A stretch of DNA of 64,000 nucleotides from Pseudomonas vanderleydeniana (GTDB taxonomy: Bacteria; Pseudomonadota; Gammaproteobacteria; Pseudomonadales; Pseudomonadaceae). The notes below the pieces were generated by a model. That model saw only the letters and a program-made list of their open reading frames with translations. It was not told the DNA's origin and did not search any database. Shown here piece after piece: positions 1 to 9,557 of the stretch. The stretch is from positions 3,088,001 through 3,152,000 of the forward strand of contig NZ_CP077093.1 of assembly GCF_014268755.2 (NCBI RefSeq). Reading direction: 5' to 3'. Made by a program: the position numbers and the translations under genes. The first letter of the stretch is position 1; each line of letters starts with the position of its first letter.

Positions 1-1083
1 GGCTTGTGCGGCGCCGGTTTCGACGTCAAAAGCCCTGACCGAACAAACAGCCGCAACGGCTACCGCGATCGCCTCTGGCAAACTCGCGCTGGCGACGTTG
101 ACCTGAAGATCCCCAAGCTGCGCCAGGGCAGCTATTTTCCCGGTTTTCTCGAACCACGACGCACCGCCGAAAAGGCCATGGCAGCCGTGATCCAGGAAGC
201 CTATATCCAGGGCGTTTCGACGCGCTCGGTCGACGAACTGGTCAAGGCCATGGGCATGTCCGGCATCTCGAAAAGCCAAGTATCCAGGCTCGCTGGCGAG
301 ATCGATGAGCGCGTCCACGCCTTCCTTGATCGACCGCTTGAGGGCGATTGGCCCTACCTGTGGATTGACGCTACCTACGTCAAGGTGCGGGAGGCCGGGC
401 GCATCGTCTCGGTCGCCGTCATAATCGCTGTGGCCGTGAACACCAACGGCGGGCGCGAGGTGCTGGGTATGCGGGTTGGCCCGTCGGAAGCCGAACCGTT
501 CTGGACGGACTTCCTGAGAAGCCTGATGCGACGCGGGCTGCGGGGTGTGAAACTGGTGATCTCTGACGCTCACGAAGGGCTCAAGGCCGCTGTTTCCAAG
601 GTTTTCCACGCGACCTGGCAACGCTGTCGCGTTCACTTCATGCGCAATGCCATGGCCCATGTCGGCAAGGGCCAGCGCACCATGGTAGCGGCCTTGCTGC
701 GCACGGTGTTTGCCCAGGACAGTCGAACCGAATGCCATCAGCAATGGCGGCTGGTGGCTGATCAACTTCGTGAGAAATACCCCAAGATCGCCACGCTCAT
801 GGACGGCTGCGAAGATGAAGTGCTGGCGCACATGGCCTTCCCGAAGGCACATCGACAGCAGTTACACAGCACTAACCCGCTGGAACGGCTAAACGCTGAG
901 ATCAAGCGGCGTACCGAAGTGGTGGGCATCTTCCCCAACGATCCGGCGATTACACGGTTGGTTGGGGCAATGCTGCTGGAGCAGAACGACGAGTGGTGCC
1001 TGCAACGGCGCTATATGCAGTTGGAGGCCTTCGAGGCGGTCAGCGATAATCCGCAGGCCAAGCTGTCGGCCGTGATCAACTAA
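1..1083 (+). CDS. IS256-family transposase, 5' end outside window
   Basis: This is a DDE transposase of the IS256 (mutator-like) family that moves its own element. The frame is open from base 1, and comparison with the complete 398-residue copy shows the first codon here is residue 39, so 38 residues are missing only because of the window edge. Catalytic Asp residues are expected in the [10 protein letters not shown] and LVISDAHEG segments, and the catalytic Glu in [15 protein letters not shown], all present. The C-terminal end (LSAVIN) is identical to the other copy. There is no frameshift, so the element is probably still active. Confidence 0.95.
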
Positions 1084-1140
1084 ACGGCAAACTCAGTGGC
1101 CAGAGCCATGATGAGTTACACCACGTCCTGGGACACGATC
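1..1140 (+). mobile_element. IS256-family insertion sequence, left part cut off by the window edge
   Basis: This is the right-hand part of an insertion sequence whose complete copy lies at 60986-62363 on the other strand. The right terminal inverted repeat ends at 1140 (GATCGTGTCCCAGG read inward from the end). The two copies agree over the whole shared coding stretch except one base I could spot, near 762, which gives Asp here and Glu in the other copy. The flanking bases 1141-1148 (GGCGATGG) would be one side of the 8-bp target duplication, but the other side is outside the window. Confidence 0.93.
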
Positions 1141-1263
1141 GGCGATGGCGTCCGTCCAGACGACACAGGGCTGATGATTTCACCGCAAACTTCAACGTAT
1201 TCCACTCTCTGCAACCAGGTGAAGAGCCTGATAGATATGCTGCTTCCGCGCTGCAGGAAGTAG
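1141..1263 (+). pseudogene. Possible 3' remnant of a gene cut by the IS insertion
   Basis: After the IS end, frame 1 stays open for 40 codons and stops at TAG 1261-1263, directly before a hairpin. This is what the tail of a gene interrupted by the insertion would look like. A second frame (starting at 1143) is also open across the same stretch, so the true frame is uncertain, and I recognise no family. The segment might instead be only the upstream region of the HNH-ATPase operon. Confidence 0.25.
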
Positions 1264-1264
1264 A

Positions 1265-1290
1265 GACGAAAAACGCCTCCACTTTTCGTC
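1265..1290 (+). terminator. Hairpin with T-rich arm, possible terminator or attenuator
   Basis: An 8-bp perfect inverted repeat, GACGAAAA / TTTTCGTC, with a 10-base loop lies 70 bases upstream of the chosen start of the HNH-ATPase gene. It could end transcription coming from the IS or from the disrupted upstream gene, or act in the leader of the defence operon. Confidence 0.4.
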
Positions 1291-1359
1291 TTGCGCCGAT
1301 TACAGTCTGCGTTTTTCATGGATGCACCGCCCAGTCGCGGCTTCTCAGGGAAGCTTCTC

Positions 1360-3621
1360 ATGCAGTTGTTCGATCGCCGTTCCGTGCCTGTTCCCGAATT
1401 TTTTCAAAGCCGGGTGATGCAGGCGTCCCGCATGCAATTGAAAGAGTTCTTCGCCGAGGACAAACGTGTCCGTGCCCAGACACGTCCCTCGTACCTTCGA
1501 GTCGAGCTGAGAGATGCCTCGTTGTTCCGTGGGCTGGACAGGCTGTTTCATGGCAAGTGCGCGTTTTGCGAGAGCCTGATGGGTGTCACCCAGGAAACCT
1601 CTGTCTATCGCTTTCGTCCCGGCAGCAACGCCAGTCCCGCACAGAATGACGAGAATGACCACCTGTACTACGCCTGGCTGGTCAATGCGTGGGAGAACCT
1701 CTACCCGATCTGCCGTGGCTGCCTGCCCGAGCGCCGCAACCATTTTCCAGTCGAGGGGGCCAGGGCGCCGATTCCCCATGAGTTGCAGTTTTCGGCCTAT
1801 GCCGAGGATCCCGAAGGGCTGTGGCGCGATCATCCGCCCAGGGAGATGAGCCTGTTGCTCGATCCGTGCGGGGATTGGCTGCCTCACTCGCATTTCGAGA
1901 TTCATCCGTCGACCGGGACCCTCGCGACATTCAGCGATGCCGGCCTGGAAACCATACGGCACTTCAATCTCAATCGGCCCGAACTCAAGCAACGACGGGC
2001 CCAAAAGCTCGGTGAATACATGGACGCGCTGGAGTTCCTGGTGCAGTCCGCAGAGCGCAAACCAGCCGACATCGAGGCATTGTTCGATTTCTCCTCCATG
2101 GAATTCGGTGGACTGTGCCATCTGCTCTGCCTGCAGTTGGAGCCATTGCTCAAAGGCTCGTTCGGCGATGGCCGTTCGCTGAATCCGCAGCGTTTTGCCT
2201 CGGTTTTCGTCGGTCTCGGGCGGCAAGCGCGAGGGCTGGCGGTCACGCCTGCGCAGGCCCTGGATGCCGAACGCCAGGCGCCATGGGCCGAACAGGAGCC
2301 ACCGCTACCACGCCTGCAATCCATCGAACTGGAAAACTTCAAGGGGATCGAGCGCCTGTGTCTGTCCCTGCCGGCACAGTCCACCGGTTTCCAGCAGCCC
2401 GCCCTGTTGATCCTCGGAGACAATGCCGCAGGCAAGAGCTCGATCCTGGAGGCGACCGCGCTGGCGTTGTGCTCTTCCACGGCGCGTGGCAGGTTGCGGC
2501 TTGACCCGCGCAAGCTGCCGCTCGATCCACGGTTGATGGGGGTGGCCCGGACGATGGCGTCCAAGCGTGCACAGGTCGTTCTGACGTTCGACGACTCGAC
2601 TCGTCGAACGCTGACCATCAGCGGCCGGAGCTACCAATCGCAGGGGCAGGATGAACGGCCTCCGGTATTTGCCTATGGCGCTTTTCGCCAGTATCTGAAC
2701 CGCACGCGCGACTTCGGCGAGGCCCGATGGATCGTCAACCTGTTCAAGTCCGATGTGCTGCTGCCCAACCCGGAGAAATGGCTGCTGGGACTCGAACAAC
2801 ATGACTTCGATCAGGTGGTCAGGGCATTGCGCGAGGTGTTGTCGATCGAATCGGTGTTCAAGGTCATCGAGCGTGACGAGGCGGGCCGATCCCGCCGCTG
2901 CCATATCGTTACCGCCACCGGCCGTACGCCGTTGAGTCATGCATCATCGGGCTATCGCTCCATGCTGGCGATGGTCTGCGACATCATTCGCGGCCTGATG
3001 GACCGGACGCTCAACCCATCTTTCGAGGATCTGGAAAGCGCCCGCGCCGTGGTACTGATCGATGAGGTAGAGGCCCATCTGCACCCGCGCTGGAAGATCC
3101 AGATCATGCGGGCCCTGCGGGCGGCCTTGCCGGAGGTCACCTTTATCGCCACCACTCACGACCCGCTGTGCCTGCGCGGCATGCAGGATGGCGAGGTGGT
3201 CGTCATGCAGCGGGTCCCGAGCGGCCAGCGGGCCGACACCCAACTGCCGGTCATGGTCGAGCAGGTGGTCCGCCTGCCGAATGTCAGCCAACTGACCGTG
3301 GAGCAACTGCTGACCTCGGATTTCTTCAGCCTGACCTCCACCGACCAGCCGGACACCGAGCGAGAGCTGGCCCACTTCGCTGACCTGCTGAGCGCCCGCG
3401 AGAGAGGCGAGCCGCTGACGGCTGCACAACAGGAGGCTTGGCGCAGTCTCGAACGTGATATCGCCGATGCCTTGCCGGTGGGCTCCACCGAAGTCCAGCG
3501 GCTGGTGCAGGAGGCTGTTGTCGACTACCTGAAGGGCCGGCGGCGGACCTCAGCGGAACAGCTCACGCATCTGCGCAGCGACGCCAAACAGCGCATCCTC
3601 GGCATCCTGGAAGGACTCTGA
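1360..3621 (+). CDS. AAA-type ATPase with N-terminal degenerate HNH domain (PtuA-like defence ATPase)
   Basis: This 753-residue protein is probably the ATPase sensor of an anti-phage system. Its N-terminal third (about 1-250) is a TIGR02646-like HNH region with zinc cysteines C67/C70 and C118/C121. The catalytic Glu-His pair of the family is replaced by Y83-R84, and the CxHCN ending is changed to CRGC, so this domain looks inactive. The C-terminal part is an ABC/RecF-like ATPase: Walker A GDNAAGKS at 353-360, signature-like SSGYRS near 529, Walker B with D568-E569 followed by HLHPRW, and a switch His at 600 (TTHD). Longer starts exist (TTG 1291, ATG 1318). ATG 1360 is preferred because AGGGA precedes it and because the N-terminus then aligns with the next protein (both carry an SVPVP motif near residue 9). 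The next gene begins 3 bases after the stop. Confidence 0.85.
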   Translation: MQLFDRRSVPVPEFFQSRVMQASRMQLKEFFAEDKRVRAQTRPSYLRVELRDASLFRGLDRLFHGKCAFCESLMGVTQETSVYRFRPGSNASPAQNDENDHLYYAWLVNAWENLYPICRGCLPERRNHFPVEGARAPIPHELQFSAYAEDPEGLWRDHPPREMSLLLDPCGDWLPHSHFEIHPSTGTLATFSDAGLETIRHFNLNRPELKQRRAQKLGEYMDALEFLVQSAERKPADIEALFDFSSMEFGGLCHLLCLQLEPLLKGSFGDGRSLNPQRFASVFVGLGRQARGLAVTPAQALDAERQAPWAEQEPPLPRLQSIELENFKGIERLCLSLPAQSTGFQQPALLILGDNAAGKSSILEATALALCSSTARGRLRLDPRKLPLDPRLMGVARTMASKRAQVVLTFDDSTRRTLTISGRSYQSQGQDERPPVFAYGAFRQYLNRTRDFGEARWIVNLFKSDVLLPNPEKWLLGLEQHDFDQVVRALREVLSIESVFKVIERDEAGRSRRCHIVTATGRTPLSHASSGYRSMLAMVCDIIRGLMDRTLNPSFEDLESARAVVLIDEVEAHLHPRWKIQIMRALRAALPEVTFIATTHDPLCLRGMQDGEVVVMQRVPSGQRADTQLPVMVEQVVRLPNVSQLTVEQLLTSDFFSLTSTDQPDTERELAHFADLLSARERGEPLTAAQQEAWRSLERDIADALPVGSTEVQRLVQEAVVDYLKGRRRTSAEQLTHLRSDAKQRILGILEGL

Positions 3622-3624
3622 AGC

Positions 3625-4653
3625 ATGCGTGCCGTCAGTCGCGATAGCGTTCCGGTGCCCGATGCCATGTCGGGAGAAGAATCACCGGCGAAAAAGGAGC
3701 TGCAGAAACTCCAGGATTACTTCAAGGCACCCAAGGGGGCGTTACCGGCCTTTGCCGTCTACAAGTCCGACAGCGTCAAGAAGCAGTTGCATGAGCTGTT
3801 CCACGGCAAGTGCGCCTACTGCGAGAGCTTCTACTACGGCAGTGCGCCGGTGGATATCGAGCACTATCGGCCCAAGGGCCGTGTCTACGAAGAGCCGGAC
3901 CACCCTGGCTACTGGTGGATCGCCATGGACTGGGAAAACCTGTTGCCCAGCTGCATTCACTGCAACCGGCGCAGTGGACAGGTAACGCCCACGTTGTCGG
4001 CGAGCCTGGTCCGCCTGGTCAATGAAGACAAGGCGTTCAGCCGCTCGAGGATGCTTCAGACCGGCAAGCAGGACAGCTTTCCCATCCTCGGTCAGCGGGC
4101 TGTGGTGGGGGCCTCGGACTTTTCCGGTGAACAGGCATTGCTGCTGGATCCGTGCCGGGACCAGCCTGAAGAGCACCTGCGGTTTCATGTCGACAGCGAC
4201 AACCTGATAGGCCTGGTCCTGCCCAAGCCCCATGACAGTGGCGGGCTGGCCCTGGGCGCTGGCGTGGCGGGCGTCAGGCCGGAGTTGCGCGGGGTGATCG
4301 AGCAGGCGCTGGCGGATGGGTTGAGCCTGCGAGGGGCGGTATCGATCCATGTCTACGGCCTGAATCGGCTCGGCCTGGTACAGGAGCGCACACGGCTACT
4401 GCGCCAGCTGGAGTTCCTGGAAATGCTGTCGGTGGAAATGGGGCTGATGGCCCAGGAGCTGGAGCCTGACGCGCAGGCCGAGGGGGTCGAGAGTGAGGAG
4501 GCGCGGGCGCGCAGCGAGCGCATTGCCAGGCGACTGCGGTTTCTCCAGGAGCAGATACTGGGGGAGATCAAGGCCATGGCCCGGCCCGAGGCGCCTTACT
4601 CGGCGATGGTCCGGGAGTGGCTGGAGGGGTTTAAGGAGCGCTTGCGTCGCTGA
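3625..4653 (+). CDS. HNH endonuclease (PtuB-like, TIGR02646 type)
   Basis: This 342-residue protein is probably the nuclease effector paired with the upstream ATPase. The HNH core is intact: zinc cysteines C63/C66 in HGKCAYCE, the catalytic E79-H80 in VDIEHYRPKG, and C110-x-H112-C113-N114 near the second zinc site. Beyond the core it shares further blocks with the N-terminal third of the ATPase (LLLDPC near residue 172, LNRLGLVQERTRLLRQ later), so the two arose from one ancestor. A helical, charged C-terminus follows. The gene starts 3 bases after the ATPase stop, so the two are cotranscribed. Its stop is only 4 bases from the end of the convergent START-domain gene. By family knowledge, PtuB proteins degrade nucleic acid on phage infection; target and trigger cannot be read here. 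Confidence 0.85.
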   Translation: MRAVSRDSVPVPDAMSGEESPAKKELQKLQDYFKAPKGALPAFAVYKSDSVKKQLHELFHGKCAYCESFYYGSAPVDIEHYRPKGRVYEEPDHPGYWWIAMDWENLLPSCIHCNRRSGQVTPTLSASLVRLVNEDKAFSRSRMLQTGKQDSFPILGQRAVVGASDFSGEQALLLDPCRDQPEEHLRFHVDSDNLIGLVLPKPHDSGGLALGAGVAGVRPELRGVIEQALADGLSLRGAVSIHVYGLNRLGLVQERTRLLRQLEFLEMLSVEMGLMAQELEPDAQAEGVESEEARARSERIARRLRFLQEQILGEIKAMARPEAPYSAMVREWLEGFKERLRR

Positions 4654-4657
4654 GGCC

Positions 4658-5284
4658 TCAGGGCGTATCCCGTACACCCTGGCGCTCCGCCACCGCCCGC
4701 AACGTCTTGAGGCTGACCATCGGCGCATCGACCACGAACCGGTTGGCCAGCCAGGAGGGGATGTCCCCGGCCGGCTCGGCCTGCAGCTGGTAGGTCACTT
4801 CGGTCTCGCCGTCAGTCTTGGGCCGCATCTGCCACAGGCCGCTCAGCTGGCGCACGCGAATCAGGCCTGTGACTGGCGGCAGGTAGTCGGGTGTCGCCTC
4901 CAGGCGGCGGACCAGGCTGCCGTCGTCGCCCTGTTCGGTGTGCACGTGCAACACCATGTCCCGCGGTGCGGCGGGCCAGGGCAGCTCGGTGGTGAGGTAG
5001 ACCCAGGTGTCATCGCCGTCGTTCTTCAGCAGGCGCATCTCGGCACAGGCGTACAGCCATTTGCAGGCGACCCTGAGGTTTTCCTGCAGGTCGCGCAGGG
5101 TCGAGACTTCGGCCTTGATATCGGCCACGCCGCGAAAGCTCTGGTAGCGTGAACCCGGCACCTGCGTCAGGTAGACCTTGATGCCGTCTTCCTCGTGGGC
5201 CAGCTTCCAGTTTTCCGCCGCGGCCAGGGTGGCCGTACCCAGGCAGGCCGTTGTCAGGGCGATCACGGATAACAGGGTTTTCAT
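4658..5284 (-). CDS. Exported START-domain lipid-binding-like protein
   Basis: This 208-residue protein starts with a signal peptide (MKTLLSVIALTTACLGTATLAAA) and then has the pattern of a bacterial START domain: a GIKVYLTQVPGS strand, a Trp-rich centre (KWLYACAEMR, WVYLTTELPWP), and a C-terminal helix ending in LKTLRAVAERQG. START domains bind hydrophobic ligands in a deep pocket, and the protein is likely periplasmic. It is monocistronic, converging on the HNH gene with a 4-base gap. The ligand cannot be inferred. Confidence 0.8.
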   Translation of the reverse strand: MKTLLSVIALTTACLGTATLAAAENWKLAHEEDGIKVYLTQVPGSRYQSFRGVADIKAEVSTLRDLQENLRVACKWLYACAEMRLLKNDGDDTWVYLTTELPWPAAPRDMVLHVHTEQGDDGSLVRRLEATPDYLPPVTGLIRVRQLSGLWQMRPKTDGETEVTYQLQAEPAGDIPSWLANRFVVDAPMVSLKTLRAVAERQGVRDTP

Positions 5285-5389
5285 TCGCAGCCTCCGCAGA
5301 CACCCGACGGTAGGTTCAGGTCTGTCAGATATAACACGCGAACGCGAAGTTTATTCGATGGTTTTGCGCGGTTGTGCTTCGAGGGGGGC

Positions 5390-5422
5390 ACCTGTCGTCG
5401 CGAGCTGCGGGCGACGACAGGT
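5390..5422 (-). terminator. Strong hairpin after the ABC importer operon
   Basis: A perfect 12-bp inverted repeat (ACCTGTCGTCGC / GCGACGACAGGT) with a 9-base loop lies 18 bases after the stop of the ABC ATPase gene. There is no long T run, so it may be a pause or RNA-stability hairpin as much as an intrinsic terminator. Confidence 0.6.
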
Positions 5423-5439
5423 TGGGGTGGGACGGGGTA

Positions 5440-6594
5440 TCAGTGGCTGCCTGCGGCCTTGTTCAGGTCGCTTTCCTGCCACTCGGTGTAGACGCAGGCA
5501 TCGGCGGTGGCCCAGCGCACGACGACCGAGTCACCGGCCTTGAGCGGCATGCCGGTGGCGGACAGGGCCTTGACGGTCATCGCCGTGCCGCCCTGGGTGA
5601 CGACACTGCAGGTCTGGCTTTCACCGAGGAACAGTACCTCGCCGACGGTCGCCTTGACCTGGTTCCAGCCGGCGGCCAGGGGTTCGCTGGCGGCCTGTTC
5701 GAGGCTCAGGGCCAGGGCCTTTTCCGGCCGCACCATCAGCAGGATGTCCTGGTCGTTCTGCAGGCCCGAGGTCAGTCGGATCGACAGTGCCTGGCTCTCG
5801 AAGCTGGCGGCCCCGTTGCCCTGGGCCTTGAGCCGCAGGAAGTTGGAGTTGCCCAGGAACGAGGCGACGAAGGCATTCGGCGGATTCTGGTAGAGGTCAT
5901 AGCCACTGCCCAGGCCGACGATCTTGCCGTGGCTGAAGATGGCGATGCGCTGGGACAGGCGCATGGCTTCTTCCTGGTCGTGGGTCACGTAGACGATGGT
6001 GATGCCCAGGCGCCGATGCAACTGGCGCAGCTCGTCCTGCAGGTCCTCGCGCAGTTTCTTGTCCAGGGCGCCGAGCGGTTCGTCCATCAGCAGGATCCGT
6101 GGCTCATAGACCAGGGCCCGGGCAATCGCCACGCGCTGTTGTTGACCGCCGGACAGTTGCGCCGGGCGGCGATGGGCGAACTTGTCCAGCTGGACCAGCT
6201 TGAGCATGGCATCGACGCGCTTGTCCCGCTCGGCGGCATCGAGCTTGCGAATGGCCAGGGGGAAGGCGATGTTGTCGCGGACCGAGAGGTGCGGGAACAG
6301 CGAGTAACGCTGGAACACCATGCCGATGTCACGCTTGTGCGGCGGCACGTTGACCAGCGACTTGCCCTCGACCAGGATCTCCCCGGTGCTGGGCGTCTCG
6401 AAACCGGCCAGCATCGACAGGGTGGTGCTCTTGCCCGAGCCGCTGGAGCCGAGGAAGGTCAGGAACTCGCCGTCCTTGATGTCCAGCGAGATGTTGTCCA
6501 CGGCGGCGAAGTCGCCGTAGTGCTTGTTCAGGTTGCGCAGGCTGACCAGGGTACGGTCGTTCTGTTGTGCGGAGTCTTTGATCACGGCACTCAT
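5440..6594 (-). CDS. ABC importer ATP-binding subunit, PotA-like
   Basis: This 384-residue ATPase energises a polyamine/opine-type ABC importer at the inner face of the cytoplasmic membrane. Walker A GSSGSGKST is at about 49-57, Q-loop FQRYSLFPH near 94, signature LSGGQQQR at 147-154, Walker B LLMDEP at 169-174 and switch THDQEEA after it. A C-terminal TOBE-like region (about 270-384) is typical of the PotA/MalK class. ATG 6594 is chosen over 6630 because AGGAG sits at proper distance before it and the longer form would overlap the permease gene. It is the last gene of a four-gene operon (binding protein, two permeases, ATPase). Confidence 0.93.
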   Translation of the reverse strand: MSAVIKDSAQQNDRTLVSLRNLNKHYGDFAAVDNISLDIKDGEFLTFLGSSGSGKSTTLSMLAGFETPSTGEILVEGKSLVNVPPHKRDIGMVFQRYSLFPHLSVRDNIAFPLAIRKLDAAERDKRVDAMLKLVQLDKFAHRRPAQLSGGQQQRVAIARALVYEPRILLMDEPLGALDKKLREDLQDELRQLHRRLGITIVYVTHDQEEAMRLSQRIAIFSHGKIVGLGSGYDLYQNPPNAFVASFLGNSNFLRLKAQGNGAASFESQALSIRLTSGLQNDQDILLMVRPEKALALSLEQAASEPLAAGWNQVKATVGEVLFLGESQTCSVVTQGGTAMTVKALSATGMPLKAGDSVVVRWATADACVYTEWQESDLNKAAGSH

Positions 6595-6613
6595 CTTGTC
6601 TACTCCTGGGCGC

Positions 6614-7423
6614 TCAGGCGCTGAGTTCATTGCGCCGACGCAGGGCGGCGGCTATCACCATCACCAACACCGACAGGCCGATCAGCAGCGTCGAAGCGAC
6701 GGCGATCACCGGGGTCAGGTCCTGGCGCAGGGTGGTCCACATTTTTACGGGCAGGGTCTGCAGGGTCGGGCTGGCCATCATCACGCTCAGCACCACCTCG
6801 TCCCACGACACCAGGAAGGCGAACAGGGCACCGGCGACCATGCCGGGACGGATGGCCGGGAAGGTCACCTTGAACACCGCCTGCAGGCGCGAGGCGCCAC
6901 AGATCACCGCGGCATCCTCGATCGACTGGTCGAACAGTTTCAGCGAGTTGATGATCGAGATGATGGTGAAGGGCAGGGCGACGATCACGTGGCTGACCAC
7001 GAAGGCGAACATCGTGCCGGTGTAGCCCAGCTTGAGGAACAGCGCATAGACGGCCACCGCGATGATCACCAGCGGCACGATCATCGGCAGGGTGAACAGC
7101 CCGTAGAGCATTTCACGACCGGGGAAGCGCCCGCGCACCAGGGCGAAGGCGGTCGGCAGGCCCAGCGCGACGGCACAGACGGTGGTCAGCACGGCGACCT
7201 TGAGGCTGGCCAGGGCGGCGCTCATCCACTCCGGGTTGGAGAAGAACTGGCCGTACCATTTCAGGGTCCAGCCCGGTGGTGGGAACACCAGCCACTGCGA
7301 GGAACCGAACGACAGCAGGACGATGAACACGATCGGCAGCAACAGGAACAGCGCGATCAGTCCGGTGGTGAGGTAGAGGCCCAGGCGCATGCGCCGGCTC
7401 ATGGCATTCGGGGTCAGGAGCAT
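6614..7423 (-). CDS. ABC importer permease, PotC-like
   Basis: This 269-residue inner-membrane permease has six predicted hydrophobic segments. It carries the EAA-type cytoplasmic loop around residues 174-195 (EDAAVICGASRLQAVFKVTFP), which contacts the ATPase. Its pattern is that of the PotC half of polyamine-type transporters. It follows the PotB-like gene by 6 bases and precedes the ATPase by about 20. Confidence 0.93.
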   Translation of the reverse strand: MLLTPNAMSRRMRLGLYLTTGLIALFLLLPIVFIVLLSFGSSQWLVFPPPGWTLKWYGQFFSNPEWMSAALASLKVAVLTTVCAVALGLPTAFALVRGRFPGREMLYGLFTLPMIVPLVIIAVAVYALFLKLGYTGTMFAFVVSHVIVALPFTIISIINSLKLFDQSIEDAAVICGASRLQAVFKVTFPAIRPGMVAGALFAFLVSWDEVVLSVMMASPTLQTLPVKMWTTLRQDLTPVIAVASTLLIGLSVLVMVIAAALRRRNELSA

Positions 7424-7429
7424 GGCGGC

Positions 7430-8374
7430 TTACCTCGCATTGCTCGCGCCGACCGGGGATTCCGGCTGGAGCTTCAGGTAGAAGTAGAACAGCACCAGGG
7501 TGATCAGGATCAGCAGGGCGGCGCCGGCGCTGGCCAGGCCCCAGTTGAGGAACGATTGCACCTGTTGAATGATGAACTCCGGCAGCATCATGTTCTGCGC
7601 GCCGCCCAGCAGGGCCGGCGTGACGTAGTAACCCAGGGACATCACGAACACCATCAGTGCGCCGGAAAACAGTCCCGGACGGCACAGCGGCAGGAAGACC
7701 CGGAAGAAGTTGGTCCACGGGCTGGCACCACAGATGGAGCCGGCCTGCAGGATCATCGGGTCGATGGCCTGCATGGTCGCCTGCAGGGGCAGGACGATGA
7801 ACGGAATCATGATGTAGCTCATGCCGATCACCACGCCGGTCAGGTTGTGCACCATCTCCAGCGGTTGGTCGATGATCCCCAGGCCCATCAGCAGCTTGTT
7901 GATCACACCCGAGGCCTGCAGCAGCACCAGCCAGGAGTAGGTGCGCGCCAGCAGGCTGGTCCACATCGACAGCAGGACGATATTGAGCAGCCAGCGGCCC
8001 CAGCCCCGTGGTACCAGGGTGATTGCCCAGGCCAGCGGGAAGCCCAGCAGCAGGCTGAACAGCGTGACCAGGCCGGCCACCGAGAAGGTGTTGAGCAGCA
8101 CCCGTGCATACGCCGAGTTGGCGAACAGTTGCTGGTAGTTCTCAAGCCCCGGGGTAGGCTCCAGCACGCCGCGCAGCAGCAGGCCGATCAGCGGTGCGAG
8201 AAAGAACACGCCCAGGAACAGCAGGGCGGGGGCCAGGTTGCTGGCGCCCTTCCAGCGTCGGGCCAGCGAAGGTGTGGATTTCATGACAGCCGCCTTGCCG
8301 GAGGCCGAGCCGGCGGCGCCAGCGGCGCCTCCGGTCGGTTGGGAGGAATGGGACGCGGAAGCGGCCATTTTCAT
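7430..8374 (-). CDS. ABC importer permease, PotB-like
   Basis: This 314-residue inner-membrane permease has a low-complexity Ala/Gly/Ser-rich N-terminal tail (first ~30 residues) followed by six hydrophobic segments and an EAA-like loop (ILQAGSICGASPWTNFFRVF). ATG 8374 is chosen because it overlaps the upstream stop as ATGA, suggesting translational coupling with the binding-protein gene; a start at 8395 is also open. The Ala/Gly tail is unusual for PotB proteins and may be a linker of no catalytic role. Confidence 0.9.
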   Translation of the reverse strand: MKMAASASHSSQPTGGAAGAAGSASGKAAVMKSTPSLARRWKGASNLAPALLFLGVFFLAPLIGLLLRGVLEPTPGLENYQQLFANSAYARVLLNTFSVAGLVTLFSLLLGFPLAWAITLVPRGWGRWLLNIVLLSMWTSLLARTYSWLVLLQASGVINKLLMGLGIIDQPLEMVHNLTGVVIGMSYIMIPFIVLPLQATMQAIDPMILQAGSICGASPWTNFFRVFLPLCRPGLFSGALMVFVMSLGYYVTPALLGGAQNMMLPEFIIQQVQSFLNWGLASAGAALLILITLVLFYFYLKLQPESPVGASNAR

Positions 8375-9396
8375 TTGACCAGCCATTCGTTCCACCGTGT
8401 CGCGATAGCAGGGCCGTTCTTGGCCCAGTAGGCGAAGTCAAGGGTGATCTGGTCCTTGGCGTAGGCGGTCGGCAGGTTTGGAGCCAGTACGGAGTCCAGG
8501 CGCGATACGCTGTCGACGTTGACCGGCGCGTAGGCGGTCAGGTTGGAGAAGTCGGCCTGGCCCTTGGCGCTGCTGGCGTTGGCCAGGAACTTCATGGCAG
8601 CGGCCTTGTTCTTGGTGCCCTTCGGTACGACCAGGATGTCGGCCATGACCAGGTTCTGCTTCCAGCTCACGCCCACTGGCGCGCCGTCCTGTTGCAGGGC
8701 ATAGACGCGGCCGTTCCAGAACTGGCCGAGCGTGGCTTCGCCGGAGGCCAGCAGTTGCTGGGACTGGGCACCACCGCCCCACCAGACGATATCTTTCTTG
8801 ATGGTGTCGAGTTTCTTGAAGGCGCGGTCCAGGTCCAGCGGATAGAGCTTGTCGGCCGGTACGCCATCAGCCAGCAGGGCCAGCTCGAGTACGCCAGGGC
8901 TTGGCCATTTGTAGAGGGCGCGCTTGCCGGGGTAGGTCTTGGTGTCGAACAGGGCGGTCCAGTCCTGGGGCTTGGTGCCAGCGAGCTTGCCCTCGTTGTA
9001 GCCGAGTACGAAGGAGAAGAAGAACGAGCCGACGCCGTGGTCGGAAACGAAGCGTGGGTCGATCTTGTCGCGCTGGATCACACTGAAGTCGAGGGGTTCG
9101 AGCAGGCCTTCGCTGGCGGCCCGCAGGGCGAAGTCGGCTTCGACGTCGACCACGTCCCACTGCACGTTGCCGCTTTCGACCATGGCCTTGAGCTTGCCGT
9201 AGTCGGTGGGGCCGTCCTGGACGACGGTGATGCCGCTGGCCTTGCTGAACGGGTCGGCCCATGCCTGCTTCTGCGCATCCTGGGTGCTACCACCCCAGCT
9301 GACGAAGTTGACGCTTTCGGCGGCCATCGCGGCCTGGCTGCCCATGCTCAGCAAGCCTGCCAGCAATACAGCGGTCGTACCTTTTTTCAACACCAT
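8371..9396 (-). CDS. ABC importer periplasmic substrate-binding protein, PotD/F-like
   Basis: This 341-residue protein has a signal peptide (MVLKKGTTAVLLAGLLSMGS, cut after AMA) followed by a type II periplasmic-binding fold of the spermidine/putrescine class. An early VNFVSWGGSTQDAQKQAW segment is typical. GTG 9402 is in frame, but ATG 9396 is better spaced from the AGGG element. It heads the importer operon. The substrate is unknown: members of this class carry polyamines, opines and other small cations, and the shared operator points to the substrate of the neighbouring catabolic genes. Confidence 0.92.
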   Translation of the reverse strand: MVLKKGTTAVLLAGLLSMGSQAAMAAESVNFVSWGGSTQDAQKQAWADPFSKASGITVVQDGPTDYGKLKAMVESGNVQWDVVDVEADFALRAASEGLLEPLDFSVIQRDKIDPRFVSDHGVGSFFFSFVLGYNEGKLAGTKPQDWTALFDTKTYPGKRALYKWPSPGVLELALLADGVPADKLYPLDLDRAFKKLDTIKKDIVWWGGGAQSQQLLASGEATLGQFWNGRVYALQQDGAPVGVSWKQNLVMADILVVPKGTKNKAAAMKFLANASSAKGQADFSNLTAYAPVNVDSVSRLDSVLAPNLPTAYAKDQITLDFAYWAKNGPAIATRWNEWLVK

Positions 9397-9557
9397 TTTC
9401 ACGCCCTCATTGTTGTGTTTTTGAGCGGGCTATCGATGCCCGCCTATCGGGAGCAGCTGGTTCTTCAATGCCTTTGCAGGCGGTCTTGGCAAGGCTAGTC
9501 GCCTGTCTCGTTCTTGGCCGGGTTCCTGGGTAAGTTTGTTCGGTCTACGGGATATCA

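Follow-up and report, generated by a model that had tools for sequence, protein, structure and literature searches.

In a 64,000-nucleotide stretch of Pseudomonas vanderleydeniana DNA (contig NZ_CP077093.1 of assembly GCF_014268755.2, positions 3,088,001 to 3,152,000; hereafter the window, to whose forward strand all coordinates refer), we analyzed a two-gene operon that by its sequence is an anti-phage Septu system of the stand-alone type, with the defence function predicted and the assignment made because no reverse transcriptase lies nearby. The first gene, ptuA (1360..3621, +), encodes a 753-amino-acid protein in which a PtuB-like pseudo-HNH domain is fused to an ABC ATPase, and the second, ptuB (3625..4653, +), encodes a 342-amino-acid HNH nuclease whose catalytic set is intact. 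A sequence-only reading of the window had described such a tightly spaced pair, an ATPase of the AAA/RecF-like kind followed by an HNH protein, and it was right about both open reading frames, which lie 3 bp apart, and about the ATPase, which makes up the C-terminal part of PtuA (Pfam AAA_21, E 7.5e-16; also AAA_15 and DUF2813). The mechanical reading frame of ptuA begins at a TTG at 1291; we set the start at the ATG at 1360, giving 753 residues, because Met1 there is nearly invariant in 91 aligned rows. The ptuA stop and the ptuB start share a frame (3619-3627), as in several Pseudomonas relatives; this in-frame succession is not general and thus probably reflects mere tight coupling.

Profile searches place the ATPase in PtuA and its partner in PtuB. 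The PADLOC model PDLC00291 spans residues 1-752 of PtuA (E 7.3e-283) and PDLC00329 spans residues 1-341 of the adjoining PtuB (E 1.7e-140), so that both components of a Septu system in the PADLOC sense are present. The label TIGR02646, which the sequence-only reading had given to the HNH protein, does not hold (41.8 bits, under the curated cut-off of 52.15), and the equivalogs of the retron Ec78 PtuA and PtuB stay far under theirs (NF041760, 102 of 500 bits; NF041761, 31.2 of 150 bits). A search of PDB sequences with PtuB gave no match at E 1. Within the ATPase, what we take to be the Walker A motif (residues 353-361, GDNAAGKSS; 2416..2442, +), the ABC signature (529-534, SSGYRS; 2944..2961, +) and Walker B (Asp568-Glu569; 3061..3066, +) are strongly conserved, with G353, N355 and K359, S529, S530, G531 and R533, and both Walker B residues invariant in the 91 rows, as is H600. 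In PtuB, Glu79, His80, Lys84, Asn105, Asn114 and Arg115 are each found in 121 of 121 rows, Glu79-His80 (3859..3864, +) providing the H of the HNH site. According to excerpts of PMC13096335, Septu defence needs the Walker A and B motifs of PtuA together with the H-N residues of PtuB; their equivalents K359, D568/E569, His80 and Asn105 are all intact in the window.

The fused N-terminal domain (residues 1-302; 1360..2265, +) is homologous to PtuB (BLASTP, E 8e-16, 26% over 258 columns). As a structure comparison with full-length PtuA barely covered anything outside residues 312-704, the domain was predicted separately; its predicted structure has the PtuB fold, with chains of retron type I-A PtuAB complexes among the best matches. 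Two CxxC pairs are kept: Cys67 and Cys70 (1558..1569, +), presumed zinc ligands, are Cys in 115 of 121 rows each and gaps in the other 6, and Cys118 and Cys121 (1711..1722, +) are Cys in 117 rows each and gaps in the other 4. The residue aligned with the catalytic His80 of PtuB, His in all 121 PtuB rows, is Arg84 (1609..1611, +), an arginine in 104 of the 121 rows, and in the 91 rows Arg84, Phe85, Arg86 and Pro87 are all conserved at 90% or more. Leu122, immediately after Cys121, occupies the position of PtuB Asn114 (Asn in 121 of 121 PtuB rows); the equivalent of Asn105 is retained. The HNH-like region that the sequence-only reading had called full is thus present as a PtuB homolog but has lost the catalytic His and the Asn of the last motif.

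Among close relatives, the Glu-His-Asn-Asn set is intact in none of 116, and in a table limited to distinct domains it is found in 0 of 93 fused copies versus 92 of the 93 PtuB rows from the same loci, the window's being counted in both (identical sequences, the window's own copy L037 and L124, whose N-terminus is cut by its contig, were left out). The sole departing PtuB row reads Glu-His-Asn-Thr. With its catalytic residues replaced, the fused copy is predicted to be unable to cut, leaving PtuB as the only predicted nuclease of the operon.

The fused domain and PtuB occur together almost without exception. Our main locus set consists of the best 80 of 444 confirmed relatives in species-representative genomes (L047-L126), and at all 80 a PtuB-matching frame lies directly downstream on the same strand, that of L068 being only 121 amino acids long. 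The two-gene order, which the sequence-only reading had proposed to survey, recurs with PtuB at 103 of the 104 loci examined. These loci are not independent, some being the same operons (e.g., L028/L049) and L183 and L184 being alike; they hold 93 distinct N-terminal domains including the window's. The exception, L040 (G237:C12) from Pseudomonas, has a shortened fused PtuA (614-amino-acid frame) with no PtuB within the fetched flank and is likely a decaying copy. Intact fused genes on seven plasmid and three viral-contig loci (two of the latter alike) are accompanied in 10 of 10 cases by a PtuB with Glu-His-Asn-Asn, the plasmid loci fetched being 8 among the 25 plasmid matches listed. At a Rhizobium plasmid locus (L175:2480-4773), the HNH-like and ATPase parts lie in different frames with PtuB present, a natural split, a frameshift or a sequencing error. 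The fused form is found in Pseudomonadota, in Planctomycetota (L106, a metagenome-assembled genome) and in Bacillota, and within the genus of the window in 21 of 298 sampled genomes, one of them holding the shortened copy. The Bacillota case is a Priestia megaterium plasmid (L178:2507-6660) on which the fused PtuA and PtuB are closely followed, on the other strand, by an annotated retron St85-family reverse transcriptase gene.

The catalytic histidine has changed repeatedly. An ATPase tree with 141 fused PtuAs, built with every fifth close relative and without rows gapped at the four positions or lacking the Walker A pattern, requires at least 17 changes between presence and absence of His, 13 of them forced by starred branches; the tree flags long branches that meet, at P0350 and P0085. 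Eleven kinds of residue, His included, occupy the position, and 13 of the 141 proteins keep a Glu/Asp-His-Asn-Asn set. Repeated loss is the simple reading because intact-looking fusions exist. When 38 domains and 43 PtuBs were placed in one tree, 34 of the domains, the window's among them, formed one set (support 93) and the other four (L043-L046) grouped among the PtuB rows; the fusion may thus have more than one origin, with long branches leaving doubt.

The fused domain is also the fastest-changing part of the operon. In 862 locus pairs, used of 900 drawn and not independent of one another, its identity was below that of PtuB in 853 and below that of the ATPase likewise in 853, with mean identities of 36% for the domain, 47% for PtuB and 46% for the ATPase. 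The contrast is sharp between the window and Pseudomonas fuscovaginae IRRI 6609 (L096), whose copy is unlike the window's over residues 1-432 of PtuA (1360..2657, +) and alike over the rest of the operon. Amino acid identity rises from 43% in residues 1-310 through 51% in 311-432 and 73% in 433-753 to 91% in PtuB; at comparable four-fold sites, whose counts are small, the figures are 37% (62 sites), 21% (34), 58% (125) and 68% (158). By blastn, the similarity to L096 starts at 2658 and that to three P. gingeri loci at 2658-2659; the P. gingeri locus L048 gives an additional weak match (68% over 358 columns, 1517-1868). In the tree of domains and PtuBs, the window's PtuB joins that of L096 (support 97, starred), but the domain of L096 falls with those of a P. 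gingeri (L054) and a P. viridiflava (L085) locus (91). Recombination inside ptuA fits both the identity break and these placements. In a mirror-tree analysis of 91 loci (L040, L068, L124 and duplicates left out), the partial correlation of domain and PtuB given the ATPase was 0.095, with 25 of 500 permutations as high. The value for ATPase and PtuB with the domain given was 0.631, and that for domain and ATPase with PtuB given was 0.597; for neither did any of 500 permutations come as high. The co-evolution suggests that PtuB partners the ATPase part here too.

Phospholipase genes recur beside these operons. Lipase genes lie in the flanks (up to 6 kb) of 29 of the 80 loci, 21 patatin-like (PF01734) and 8 Tle1-like (PF09994) and never both; five patatin-like and three Tle1-like representatives were checked with Pfam. 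At 25 loci the lipase gene is an immediate same-strand neighbor of the operon, on either side (19 patatin and 6 Tle1-like genes); the rest are on the other strand or further away. Examples are L082:9102-10817, L121:4087-5985, L064:3616-4932 and L119:9192-10343. The labels are scattered over a tree of 79 PtuAs, with at least nine changes for patatin and at least six for Tle1-like genes. Of 398 Pseudomonadota genomes, 6 were found to carry the patatin family of these loci, none of them with PtuA or PtuB within 1.5 kb of it, and neither lipase was seen at 30 plain Septu loci, though their flanks were shorter, often under 1.5 kb. No PADLOC-DB 2.0.0 model matched the eight lipases tested, and no on-topic paper on lipases next to such operons was among the matches listed in the open-access literature. 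The association suggests a phospholipase as a possible third component, giving a three-gene form in some lineages; the window's own operon has neither lipase type beside it.

Upstream, the mobile element that the sequence-only reading had placed alongside is an IS256-family transposase (1..1083, +, the gene beginning before the window; NF033543, 346 bits, cut-off 150). The whole IS256 copy measures 1,631 bp (L004:11561-13191, about -439 to 1191 in window terms) and ends 168 bp upstream of ptuA. P. fuscovaginae SE-1 lacks it: there the two flanks, 92.7 and 96.6% identical, join at a single point. A script that looked around the junctions for a duplicated target site of at least 8 bp gave none. 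Since SE-1 has the operon without the IS, the element is a later insertion and not part of the operon, and we rejected the idea of the operon as mobile-element cargo. The copy may alter the ptuA promoter or the expression of the operon; no sigma-70-like site emerged when promoters were sought, and the two terminator-like sites do not exceed what shuffled sequences give. From their translations, we take the downstream neighbors to be a lipid-binding gene of the START-like kind together with an ABC transporter operon of the polyamine type, and the upstream ones a flavin-reductase-like and a permease-like gene. The same transporter genes (4658-9402) follow the operon at 11 of the 80 loci, every one from Pseudomonas, and thus mark a chromosomal site shared within the genus. 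The window's own neighbors look metabolic. A housekeeping role was rejected: the Septu models match both genes at full length and the fused family is patchy in the genus. Of 153 neighbor frames listed from 24 of the 80 loci, 115 from 19 loci were scanned, leaving out 35 from five Pseudomonas loci and 3 from L114; the scanned frames gave matches to 16 PADLOC families at E 1e-15, LmuA in three members and the others in one each, mostly restriction-modification models. These matches have no matched control, and we do not claim a defence-island context.

The explanation towards which we lean, tentatively and at somewhat less than even confidence, is that the dead PtuB-like domain, with its His-to-Arg change, is a variable recognition module that binds a trigger or target nucleic acid without cutting it, PtuB being the sole predicted nuclease. 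It rests on the family matches, the predicted PtuB fold, the residue losses and the intact ATPase and PtuB motifs, and further on the near-universal presence of PtuB, the fast divergence of the domain and the mosaic N-terminal half. The same His apparently having been lost many separate times, a broken nuclease has likely been reused, perhaps to recognize infection. By analogy with other Septu systems, PtuB would be bound on the ATPase part of PtuA, which would hold the complex in check until infection freed PtuB to cut nucleic acid (single-stranded DNA or tRNA in the systems studied). The pseudo-nuclease domain would provide the recognition, with Arg84, in the former active site and beside the CxxC pairs, contacting nucleic acid or another anionic ligand.

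We consider it somewhat unlikely that the domain is instead a docking half, pairing with PtuB through a PtuB-PtuB-like surface and positioning the live subunit, in the manner of the nuclease-dead partners ERCC1 (of XPF) and EME1 (of MUS81). Such a role would agree with a domain that has the predicted fold of its partner, with PtuB at nearly all loci and with a Septu complex given, in the excerpted text of a review, as PtuA-PtuB 6:2 and said to degrade the phage genome (PMC12948488). A docking surface sits poorly, however, with a domain that co-evolves little with PtuB beyond the ATPase and that falls to 43% identity while PtuB stays at 91%; because it also diverges faster than PtuB and the ATPase and looks recombined, we favor recognition over docking. 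The kept CxxC pairs and the conserved arginine, together with the fast variation and apparent exchange, make a recognition domain the likelier of the two. Improbable in our judgment is that the domain is a vestige, a leftover fused PtuB copy that lost catalysis and only aids folding in an otherwise ordinary Septu. Its standing as the fastest-diverging part of the operon and the ten residues other than His at the catalytic position are what a vestige would give, but the CxxC cysteines persist in all non-gap rows, the Arg84-Pro87 stretch is conserved, and the domain is retained across three phyla.

Several observations weigh against a recognition module made from a dead nuclease. The His position is still His in 9 of the 93 N-terminal domains, each with another position altered, and the Glu/Asp-His-Asn-Asn set survives in 15 of 120 fused PtuAs that are more distant (9 with Glu, 6 with Asp; P0039, P0051, P0064 and P0097, which lack the CxxC motif, left out), so that in some relatives the domain may still cut. 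L185, whose domain reads Asp-His-Asn-Asn, has a PtuB too, and the pairing with PtuB therefore does not begin with the loss of catalysis. Frames beside plain PtuA-like ATPases at L012, L023 and L024 also depart from Glu/Asp-His-Asn-Asn, which makes the motif reading unsure at that distance, and the ATPase tree cannot separate loss of His from gain. Relaxed constraint would also fit the fast divergence, the four-fold counts are small and the locus pairs not independent, and the weak co-evolution with PtuB may be noise of a fast domain. The intact-looking distant fusions speak for another reading, in which both HNH domains cut and PtuA is itself an active nuclease, the second of the operon, whose active site is unusual; this is very improbable, and rejected for the window's clade by the residue survey, as the window's PtuA lacks the His and the last-motif Asn. 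Alteration of PtuB by itself, moreover, abolished defence in other Septu systems, at H75 or N91 in E. coli (PMC13096335) and at His53 in Providencia (PMC12935923), as these papers report. We give hardly any credence to the pair being the effector of a type I-A retron, although its nearest solved relatives include a retron I-A PtuA. That system requires a reverse transcriptase and an msr-msd beside ptuAB, and the candidate was rejected as no reverse transcriptase is near: the genome has two RVT_1 matches, about 0.96 and 3.5 Mb off and none within 0.9 Mb of the operon, Rfam gave no match at gathering score over 1-6700, and the Ec78 equivalogs score far under cut-off.

Among the closest known systems, the E. 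coli Septu (PDB 8eea/8ee4) has a PtuA of 465 amino acids (8ee4_A), too short for the extra domain, against the 753 of the window's PtuA with its dead PtuB copy, and an E. coli Septu is reported to cleave tRNA-Tyr. Type I-A retrons (Eco7/Ec78, Ec83) have homologous PtuA and PtuB proteins, their PtuA being 456-552 amino acids long, and PtuAB bound to the retron is released upon infection, according to the excerpts of PMC12948488. The ptuXYZ systems likewise combine a PtuA-like ATPase with other effectors, their partners differing in being DUF262 and PIN-BECR proteins in the part of PMC11980606 available. Fused PtuAs are already inside PADLOC: the PtuA1 models PDLC00291 (773 positions) and PDLC00288 (733) match the window's PtuA end to end, with PDLC00292 (726) also listed. 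The operon is thus not a new system, and the unusual Septu-like architecture proposed by the sequence-only reading is supported in part. The PADLOC description says only "AAA ATPase domain," with the fusion and the dead active site not stated there. Within the open-access literature searched, no paper came up on a PtuA that is fused or has a dead HNH, and the matches returned did not mention the dead active site, how often it changed, how variable it is or the lipase neighbors.

To our knowledge, how stand-alone Septu systems sense infection is unsettled. A fuller account, which we offer more hesitantly than recognition as such, is that a defence nuclease fused to its own ATPase lost its catalysis time and again and came to serve as a phage-recognition domain that can be exchanged, the N-terminal half of PtuA being swapped between strains while the ATPase core and PtuB stay, with a lipase as optional third component in some lineages. 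If this modular reading is true, the family would be a Septu branch whose sensor was built from a dead copy of its own effector, and if the changes of the histidine are losses, it would provide a strong natural example of how an enzyme of immunity turns into a pseudoenzyme. Infection sensing has a concrete place to be sought in such a Septu branch, where the added domain derives from a nuclease, changes fast and apparently recombines.

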